A DNA stretch of 64,000 bases from Candidatus Nitrosopelagicus brevis (GTDB lineage: Archaea > Thermoproteota > Nitrososphaeria > Nitrososphaerales > Nitrosopumilaceae), in NCBI RefSeq assembly GCF_000812185.1, contig NZ_CP007026.1, positions 1-64,000 on the forward strand, given 5' to 3'. Made by a program: the position numbers and the translations under genes. The notes beneath the pieces were generated by a model that did no database searches, was not told the DNA's origin, and saw only the letters and a program-made list of their open reading frames with translations. Below, piece by piece: positions 17,983-19,985 of this stretch. The first letter of the stretch is position 1. Each line of letters begins with the position of its first letter.

Positions 17983-18417
17983 TTAATTCTTGAACTTTAT
18001 CCCAAAGGTGACCCTTCTATTGAGGACATAATTTATGCCGCTGGCTACGGCAATTCCGATTCCTGCGCCATACATGTGGTAAAATGCACTACTTTCGACT
18101 AGGGTGACTGTAATTCCCAATTGGATGGCCATTCCAATAGCGCTAATTATGAGAAATTTTATGTACATCACAGAATTCTTTTTGTCTTCTACATGACTGC
18201 CAAACGTCCAGTATCTGTTGAAAAAGAAATTTGTAGTAATTGAAACTGAGATTGCTATAATTTGTGATGCGACATACCAGAAGCCAGCAATATCTGTTAG
18301 AATATACAAAATACCTAGATTTACTAAAACTCCGCTAGCGCCTACAATGTAAAATTGAACTGCATGTTTTGCAAATAACGATAGTCCGCCTTTCTTCTCT
18401 CCATCTTCTATCGTCAT
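17983..18417 (-). CDS. GtrA family membrane protein
   Basis: It has 144 aa and four hydrophobic segments. FYIVGASGVLVNLGILYIL, TTNFFFNRYWTF and GINYVLNRRVTF are GtrA signatures. The family is thought to flip polyprenyl-phosphate sugars for cell-surface glycans. GAGGGGAT lies a few bases before the ATG, a weak ribosome-binding sequence. A Dpm1-like sugar transferase, a common partner, is at 45885. Confidence 0.85.
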   Translation of the reverse strand: MTIEDGEKKGGLSLFAKHAVQFYIVGASGVLVNLGILYILTDIAGFWYVASQIIAISVSITTNFFFNRYWTFGSHVEDKKNSVMYIKFLIISAIGMAIQLGITVTLVESSAFYHMYGAGIGIAVASGINYVLNRRVTFGIKFKN

Positions 18418-18514: not shown

Positions 18515-18523
18515 CTTATATAC
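18515..18523 (+). promoter_or_regulatory. TATA-like box upstream of RNA candidate
   Basis: CTTATATAC in an AT-rich stretch predicts transcription starting near 18541-18546 on the plus strand, just before the structured region. Confidence 0.45.
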
Positions 18524-18542
18524 AATAAAGACATACTGATAG

Positions 18543-18680
18543 TAATGCGAAAGGATGTAAATCCTATCAATTAAACTTGCGTGGTCCTGCAGAGCAGAAA
18601 TTAGAGCCAAAGCACATTTGTGCGGGCAAAAGTGAGGGAATCTCACATTGCTTTGCCAAAGGGCCACGCCCCCATTAATT
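18543..18680 (+). ncRNA. Candidate structured noncoding RNA
   Basis: No convincing frame crosses this GC-rich island in an AT-rich intergenic region. GCGTGGTCC (18579-18587) pairs with GGGCCACGC (18661-18669) to give 9 bp including one G-U that only works on the plus strand. Inside are CTGC/GCAG around 18588-18598, GCAC-ATTT-GTGC (18612-18623), and GGCAAA (18625-18630)/TTTGCC (18652-18657) enclosing GTGAG (18632-18636)/CTCAC (18642-18646). Upstream, AGGAT-GTAA-ATCCT (18552-18565) forms a hairpin with a GNRA tetraloop. A TATA-like box at 18515 fits a start near 18543. The 3' end is a guess. It is not a tRNA, 5S RNA or an obvious SRP or RNase P RNA. Confidence 0.6.
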
Positions 18681-18684
18681 TAGA

Positions 18685-19206
18685 CTAGATGCTTCTATCT
18701 ACCTTAGTTAATGAGATGCTGACAGAACCTTCTAGATTACCAGACCTGTTGATTGTAATTTCATATATTGCTTCATCTGAGCTTGGAATCTCTCCTTCTA
18801 ATTCTGGAATTTGAACATATTTCTGACCGATGTATTCCCATGTGTAGTATTTTGAAATTCCAGTATCAACCAAACTTTTTTCCAAAACAAACTCTTCAGA
18901 AAATATCTGCCTCCAACTAGGCTCCAACCTATAACTCTCAGTCCACTTTCCCTTTATCGTAAGTTTAATTTTAGCAGGAGAATCTCCCATCGGCACAAAT
19001 CCAATTTTGTAAGTTCCTCCTTCTATTACTCCTAAACCAGATGTGATGGTCTGAATATCATTAAACTCCTCACCTGATATTCGGAAACTCCAAATCTCTC
19101 CACCAGAGCGTTGCTCATTCCCACCTGGGTTCATTGATGCTCCATATGCCATAGAAATTATGATTGCAACAGCTACTATTCCTCCAGCAATCACCATTTT
19201 ATTCAT
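18685..19206 (-). CDS. Hypothetical secreted or membrane-anchored protein (173 aa)
   Basis: An N-terminal hydrophobic segment (about 5-23) is followed by a beta-rich extracytoplasmic domain with several Trp and Tyr residues, for example IWSFRISGEEF. No Cys and no recognised motif. It diverges from the first CdvB paralog and lies immediately next to the structured RNA candidate, which is on the opposite strand. Confidence 0.65.
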   Translation of the reverse strand: MNKMVIAGGIVAVAIIISMAYGASMNPGGNEQRSGGEIWSFRISGEEFNDIQTITSGLGVIEGGTYKIGFVPMGDSPAKIKLTIKGKWTESYRLEPSWRQIFSEEFVLEKSLVDTGISKYYTWEYIGQKYVQIPELEGEIPSSDEAIYEITINRSGNLEGSVSISLTKVDRSI

Positions 19207-19325
19207 AATCTAGGCATGAATTTCCCAGATTATAGTCATTTTGTTGAATTCTAGTCACACAATTTCTATAATTGGTGAACCATTATTCACACCGGAAATT
19301 AATAACATATTTCAAAACAGTACGC

Positions 19326-19985
19326 ATGGCAAGTTTCCAAGACAAATGGGCCGCTCCACAAAAGCAGAGTTTCATGGACAAATTAGGTGATACCCTAAAA
19401 CCAAAAGGATCACTAAAACCAAGAGTCGAAATGGCTGTAAAACGATTACAGGCTCAAATCGGAAAACTTGATGGTATGTGCCAAAAACTCCAAGAAAGAG
19501 ACCAGAAAATTTTCCAAAAAATCGTAGCTGCTCAACAAGCACACGACACCTATTCAAGTAAAGTATTATCAAACGAACTAGTAGAAGTTCGAAAAGTTAA
19601 CAAAATTATGACCAACGCCAAAATGGGCTTGGAGAGAATTGAATTAAGATTAACAACCTTCCACGACCTAGGAGATACAGTTACCACATTGATGCCAACA
19701 ATCGGCCTCATGAACGGACTCAAATCATCACTTGTCAAATTCATGCCAGGTGCAGATCAAGAGATTGGTAGAATGACTGAGATGTTAGGTGGACTAATGA
19801 CTGAAACCTTCAGCAGCAGTGGATCATCATTCGGAGTTGAAGAATCAACAAACGCTGAATCTGACAGCATCTTAGCAGAAGCAGCAGCAGTTGCAGAATC
19901 ACAATCAGGAGAACAGTTCCCTTCAGTACCAACAACTGGAATGGAGCAATTTGATATTCCAACTTCTGAATCAAAATTTATGTGA
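19326..19985 (+). CDS. ESCRT-III (Snf7-like) CdvB-family protein, paralog 1
   Basis: Archaeal ESCRT-III homologs polymerise at membranes during Cdv cell division. The Snf7-type core is seen: a basic first helix (TLKPKGSLKPRVEMAVKRL), long amphipathic helices rich in Gln, Lys and Glu, then an acidic linker and the C-terminal QFPSVP stretch. The ATG at 19326 gives 219 aa starting MASFQDKW; an upstream start at 19272 is unlikely. It shares the N-terminal DTLKP..LKPR and the C-terminal FPSVP motif with the paralog at 45205. No winged helix is attached. CdvA and CdvC are not in the window. Confidence 0.85.
   Translation: MASFQDKWAAPQKQSFMDKLGDTLKPKGSLKPRVEMAVKRLQAQIGKLDGMCQKLQERDQKIFQKIVAAQQAHDTYSSKVLSNELVEVRKVNKIMTNAKMGLERIELRLTTFHDLGDTVTTLMPTIGLMNGLKSSLVKFMPGADQEIGRMTEMLGGLMTETFSSSGSSFGVEESTNAESDSILAEAAAVAESQSGEQFPSVPTTGMEQFDIPTSESKFM

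Follow-up and report, generated by a model that had tools for sequence, protein, structure and literature searches.

Marine ammonia-oxidizing archaea rank with the most numerous microbes of the ocean, and a search of open-access literature turned up no lineage-specific regulatory RNA of this group. The locus considered here raises the question of whether such an RNA exists and, if so, what it does. It belongs to Candidatus Nitrosopelagicus brevis (NZ_CP007026.1), lies within a window of 64,000 nucleotides (the whole stretch of DNA analysed), and occupies the gap between a divergent GtrA-family gene (17983-18417, minus strand) and a convergent gene (18685-19206, minus strand). The original prediction had placed a candidate structured RNA here, at 18543-18680 on the plus strand.

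Fold and covariation

The plus strand of 18540-18685 folds to -51.9 kcal/mol (z = -5.1), and none of 200 shuffled sequences folded as well. The minus strand of the same interval folds less well (z = -2.8), and the G-U pair in the closing stem that had been taken as a sign of the plus strand is present at 18585/18663. The 9-bp closing stem had been placed exactly, the two inner hairpins correspond to P3 and P4, and the upstream hairpin with its GNRA tetraloop is P1 (Table 1).

Table 1. Features of the RNA gene and its promoter in the window
Feature	Position	Strand	Sequence or form	Basis or remark
TATA box	18516-18522	+	TTATATA (family consensus TTAAATA)	First T 29 nt upstream of the A of the mini-ORF start codon
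Mini-ORF, 9 codons, predicted leaderless	18545-18574	+	ATG CGA AAG GAT GTA AAT CCT ATC AAT TAA (MRKDVNPIN*)	Homolog conservation
P1, hairpin within mini-ORF	18549-18567	+	GUAA (GNRA) loop	Folds; double changes in all 8 pairs across paralogs
Spacer, stop codon to helix P2	18575-18578	+	4 nt here	3-5 nt in homologs, sequence free
P2a, 5' strand	18579-18587	+	GCGUGGUCC	Pairs with 18661-18669
P2b, 5' strand	18589-18595	+	GCAGAGC	Pairs with 18650-18656
P3, variable hairpin of three-way junction	18606-18627	+		Fold prediction
P4 hairpin	18632-18646	+	GUGAG-GGAAU-CUCAC; core GAG-GNAAU-CUC nearly invariant	Near-invariant columns 138-145 and 196-198 of alignment A6
P2b, 3' strand	18650-18656	+	GCUUUGC	Pairs with 18589-18595
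P2a, 3' strand	18661-18669	+	GGGCCACGC	Pairs with 18579-18587
Presumed 3' end region	18670-18684	+	CCCCCATTAATTTAG	U-rich in most homologs, weak here

The same overall shape, with P1, a long interrupted P2a/P2b, a variable P3 and a conserved P4, is obtained in several genera when each sequence is folded alone. A first set of 22 sequences contained 10 pairs with compensatory double changes (31 double-change cells), and in a set of 91 sequences such changes occur in 24 of 29 pairs, in 236 cells compared with 60 in shuffles. Covariation in homologs, on which the original prediction had staked itself, is decisively present. Within the larger set, double changes affect 7/7 pairs of P2b and 6/9 pairs of P2a, where 95.5% of cells are paired, and G-U pairs specific to the plus strand are widespread. 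Each of the 104 distinct P3 segments forms a hairpin with 4 bp or more (mean z -2.2), and the second pair of P4 swaps between AU and UA among homologs. A conserved fold with compensatory changes is thus combined with a promoter of its own, as expected of a self-standing structured non-coding RNA gene, and it is virtually certain that the locus is a structured RNA gene.

The most constant sequences are the P4 core and the GCG/CGCC base of P2, either of which might be a binding site or take part in a tertiary contact. In the 20 nt past the end of the model, T accounts for 46% on average, and a run of at least four T is found in 104 of 139 members. Five loci (L094, L097, L106, L117 and L119) have a hairpin with AGAGAAUGCUUUU in place of P4 and keep the mini-ORF and the base of P2; this subfamily is a second scaffold type.

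Distribution

A DNA search detected the element in 12 of 31 genomes of the genus and, in more diverged form, in 42 of 250 genomes of the family. With a covariance model it is found in 225 of the 250 Nitrosopumilaceae genomes, including 127 of 131 near-complete ones, usually in one to four copies each. No match occurs outside Nitrosopumilaceae among 398 genomes of the phylum, and a broader model built from 91 sequences gives the same family limit among 399 genomes of the order. Homologs had been expected across Nitrosopumilus, a close guess, but the right level is the family Nitrosopumilaceae and not a genus. According to the broader model, the window genome has a single copy. Most of its genus likewise has one, and the 8 of 31 genus genomes without any copy in the first covariance-model search are mostly incomplete assemblies. 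Several copies per genome are present in many relatives of the window genome, and most genera of the family are multi-copy. In named records, the P4/P2b pattern occurs in Nitrosopumilus, Nitrosarchaeum and other thaumarchaeal assemblies, and cultured Nitrosopumilus strains are among the carriers of the RNA.

A few occurrences are anomalous. One bin labelled Hyphomicrobiales carries the pattern (L296, JABSRY010000148.1); the contig is probably archaeal contamination, as the pattern also occurs in a Nitrosopumilus bin of the same isolate series (DT). The pattern is also present in two bins labelled Nitrososphaeraceae, whose labels may be wrong. At L103 (2032-2158) the copy has a GC content of 24%, its stems are broken and its frame closes after 4 codons; another copy in the same genome is intact, and L103 is apparently a decaying member.

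Promoter and mini-ORF

The TATA-like box of the original prediction is located at a fixed distance from the mini-ORF in 128 of 136 homologs: the start codon follows its first base by 29 nt in 112 of them and by 28 nt in the other 16. For long ATG genes in the same loci, the corresponding distance peaks at 27-28 nt, and the transcript should therefore be leaderless or nearly so, a leaderless mRNA being one with a 5' UTR of at most about 5 nt. The predicted transcription start coincides with the A of the ATG (18545) or precedes it by up to 2 nt. The plus-strand promoter thus stands, whereas the start that had been expected near 18543 has moved to this position.

The gap had also been described as lacking a convincing frame, and this part of the original prediction does not hold, as the upstream hairpin sits inside a conserved ORF. 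Among 139 distinct members, which share ancestry and so represent far fewer independent observations, 136 carry an ORF of exactly 9 codons (128) or 8 codons (8) that runs from a start codon to a stop. The start is ATG in 130, GTG in five and TTG in one, and the stop is TAA in 87, TGA in 25 and TAG in 24. The three exceptions are a truncated variant (L110), the AT-rich degenerate copy at L103 and a 10-codon ORF (L182). In an out-of-sample set of 51 members, picked by pattern from the 3' half of the RNA only, the ORF has 9 codons in 48, 8 in two and 10 in one. Sense length differs almost only by whole codons (24, 27 and rarely 30 nt), and frame 0 is open in 136/136 members, compared with just 28 for frame 1. 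In shuffled stretches a stop falls at that place in 8.2% of cases, a chance of 0.082 per unrelated sequence; eight of the ORFs are less than 50% identical to one another. No longer ORF runs through the folded part, where all three frames are usually closed. From these regularities of sequence, the mini-ORF is very probably translated.

P1 lies entirely within this ORF. Its pairs are partial in a fixed register (56% of cells paired), which makes P1 weaker than P2 and P4. The isolated mini-ORF folds better than shuffles (mean z -2.4), and this, together with the covariation of P1, indicates that the same 30 nt carry both a frame and a hairpin.

A possible role for the ribosome

The gene would consist of a promoter, a leaderless 9-codon mini-ORF, a spacer of 3-5 nt, a rigid three-way-junction RNA of about 95 nt and, usually, a U-rich end. 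The reading that we favour, with a probability of roughly 0.55, is that of a ribosome-landing RNA: a standalone gene in which a content-free mini-ORF docks a ribosome against the scaffold. A ribosome would bind the 5'-terminal AUG and read 8-9 codons, and the stop codon would be so placed that the leading edge of the ribosome must run into helix P2. The peptide would be a by-product, and the engaged, terminating or paused ribosome would be the object of selection. The scaffold would most likely act on the landed ribosome, by holding it, by delaying termination or recycling, or by recruiting a factor through P4. Alternatively, ribosome occupancy could serve as a switch on the fold, stability or activity of the RNA itself. 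A ribosome-directed role in trans is put forward tentatively, as a hypothesis that falls somewhat short of even odds. Transcription, translation, action in trans and the ribosome as target are here all deduced from sequence. Some observations argue against ribosome landing: P1 forms immediately downstream of the AUG, where it might impede initiation on a leaderless transcript, and the window genome and most of its genus have just one copy of the RNA, with none seen in 8 of 31 genus genomes.

The geometry between stop codon and helix bears on this reading. Of 79 members with nine codons, 78 have a spacer of 3-5 nt, as do all 8 with eight codons; it is unchanged where the ORF is one codon shorter. 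Judging by the general dimensions of ribosomes, one with the stop codon in its A site would lie over the base of P2 or push against it.

A stop held just before P2 and a neutral peptide would also fit an ORF that serves the life cycle of the RNA. Early capture of a ribosome could protect the 5' end or couple transcription to translation, and the stop could keep ribosomes off a folded domain whose function in trans is unrelated, for example base pairing of the sRNA type. The 5'-triphosphate is known to help archaeal leaderless mRNAs bind the small subunit (PMC11698992), in keeping with such a capture. However, neither a near-constant length of 8-9 codons nor a kept start would be required if initiation were a mere nuisance, and this alternative seems unlikely.

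What selection maintains

Changes were followed on a minimum spanning tree and on a tree of 127 tips constructed from the RNA outside the mini-ORF, in both cases for ORF-bearing members only (3/139 left out), whose relatedness means that the counts are not independent. On the spanning tree, the start codon is unchanged and 14/14 changes in the stop codon lead from stop to stop, always between A and G, although the flanking bases vary freely. On the 127-tip tree, 26/26 stop-codon changes keep a stop, and there is a single start change, to GTG. The sense codons of the same tree show 51 synonymous and 163 nonsynonymous changes, or 23.9% synonymous compared with a neutral expectation of 24.5%; an earlier, coarser count of 16/67 is in agreement. 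Changes by codon position (112/143/128) show no bias, and codons 5-7, in the loop of P1, vary freely. With stops exchanged only for stops and sense codons neutral, selection evidently keeps start, frame, length and stop, and not the peptide. It is thus likely, as far as these substitution patterns can tell, that translation rather than the peptide is what matters.

These counts weigh against a dual-function small RNA, in which the 9-residue peptide itself would work as a signal or regulator, with the 3' structure serving only to stabilise the message or base-pair with targets. The ORF is conserved, the class A peptides follow a loose M-x-K-D-x-x-(P/S)-I-D pattern, and leaderless short ORFs do exist in archaeal sRNAs, such as the 20-aa ORF of sRNA154 (PMC11456600). 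However, there is no synonymous bias, residues 5-7 swap between charged, polar and hydrophobic types, and the peptides of paralogs are mutually unrelated. Neutral codons and unrelated paralog peptides are also the grounds on which a dual-function sRNA with a conserved peptide was rejected as a class, and a functional peptide appears quite improbable.

It may instead be that the RNA is purely non-coding, with the AUG, P1 and a URR triplet acting as protein- or RNA-binding motifs that resemble an ORF in appearance only. The hairpin P1 is indeed genuine, as its covariation shows, and the scaffold is conserved in its own right. Binding motifs would not, however, account for starts that swap to GTG or TTG, for stops that swap among TAA, TGA and TAG only, for length steps of whole codons, or for the openness of frame 0 relative to frame 1. 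This alternative is accordingly held to be very unlikely.

Genomic setting

Among 41 loci, the nearest downstream gene is convergent in most and the upstream gene is usually divergent; with the nearest downstream ORF on the opposite strand in most of them, a cis-leader, attenuator or riboswitch was rejected. Copies occur at several unrelated loci, and the neighbours of different paralog loci have nothing evident in common. No shared functional theme emerges from these neighbours, which by eye include short-chain dehydrogenase, PurP-like, Sir2-like and aroC/aroA-like genes. Convergent downstream genes and unrelated neighbours suggest that the RNA is its own gene, most likely acting in trans. 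The RNA at locus A abuts the stop codon of the conserved convergent gene, and it could in principle serve that secreted-protein gene as a 3' UTR element or terminator, or act in cis as the leader of some gene downstream. Such a role is most improbable given copies beside unrelated genes, the lack of a co-oriented next gene in most loci, the better fold and widespread G-U pairs of the plus strand, and a TATA box at a fixed distance.

The convergent gene encodes a small secreted-type protein of 173 aa without a Pfam match, tail-to-tail with the RNA. In most genera a homolog of this protein is encoded beside the locus-A copy, and its stop codon falls within a few bases of the end of the RNA. Upstream, the GtrA-family gene is present in the window genus and in g2, and most other genera have a short-chain dehydrogenase-like gene (by eye) at the same place, which implies that the RNA stayed and the neighbour was exchanged. 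Beyond the secreted-protein gene, a protein encoded at 19272-19985 on the plus strand resembles archaeal ESCRT-III/CdvB by eye (no Pfam match at E 0.01), and a homolog occurs at the same place at many locus-A copies.

Comparison with known systems

The original prediction had recognised no RNA class in the shape and size of the element, and the covariance models of Rfam 15 likewise give no match at gathering score in the window and 15 homolog loci; the best sub-threshold matches for the element have E values of 0.14 and 1.3. No prior description of the RNA was found in the open-access literature, and an earlier mention in genome papers of subscription journals is possible.

Several specific candidates were rejected. 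ARAGORN finds no tRNA or tmRNA in the window or in the 15 homolog loci. The window's genome has its RNase P RNA (RF00373) at 793363-793642 and its SRP RNA (RF01857) at 99939-100250, both away from this locus; in one complete genome (G087), unlike four relatives, neither is matched, possibly as a result of masked sequence. A guide RNA of the box C/D or H/ACA type was dropped on inspection, with no consistent CUGA or ANA box. P4 has no match inside the 23S gene that would make it a 23S rRNA mimic, and the P4/P2b pattern has no match in viral contigs that would point to a viral origin.

Among systems in which translation itself matters, leader-peptide attenuators such as tnaC, the erm leaders and the cysteine leaders have a very short ORF beside an RNA helix, and translation rather than its product controls what lies downstream in cis. 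The new RNA similarly combines a short ORF with an adjoining helix and appears to depend on translation and not on the peptide, but its downstream gene is mostly convergent and its ORF has no repeated sensing codon. tmRNA is stable and structured and contains a short reading frame that ends in a stop codon; archaea are not known to have it. The new RNA differs from it in lacking a tRNA-like domain and in that its ORF begins at the 5' end with a start codon of its own. Since the RNA lacks the tested defining feature of attenuators, dual-function sRNAs and tmRNA alike, it has been marked, with reservation, as apparently outside the known kinds, as these are represented in the open-access literature, subscription-journal genome papers aside.

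Systems closer to it in habitat or lineage resemble it in part. sRNA154 of Methanosarcina mazei is also an archaeal small RNA with a leaderless short ORF and a proposed dual function, but it belongs to another lineage, its 20-aa ORF encodes a small protein conserved in the genus, and the available part of the report describes no multi-copy three-way junction (PMC11456600); the new ORF has 8-9 codons and a peptide that drifts neutrally. Ribosome-associated sRNAs of Haloferax volcanii are likewise archaeal and occupied by ribosomes, often without evidence of a protein product, although they are not one homologous structured family and no fixed-length mini-ORF appears in the accessible text of that study (PMC12482152). 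Yfr103 (picocyanobacteria, 290-328 nt, multi-copy) and Tan1 (Euryarchaeota, 229 nt) are lineage-specific structured RNAs of marine microbes, but the portion of the report at hand mentions no mini-ORF in either and names no Thaumarchaeota ncRNA (PMC5069720).

The new RNA is almost universal in Nitrosopumilaceae; its structure is conserved, and its frame is preserved in length, start and stop but not in the peptide encoded. It is conceivable, if rather less than an even bet, that it represents a new RNA device, in which a content-free mini-ORF of fixed length would bring a ribosome to a set distance from a scaffold that acts in trans, for ribosome parking, hibernation, termination control or the sensing of translation. 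If translation without a meaningful peptide is indeed its purpose, it would engage the ribosome in a manner unlike that of tmRNA, leader peptides or dual-function sRNAs.
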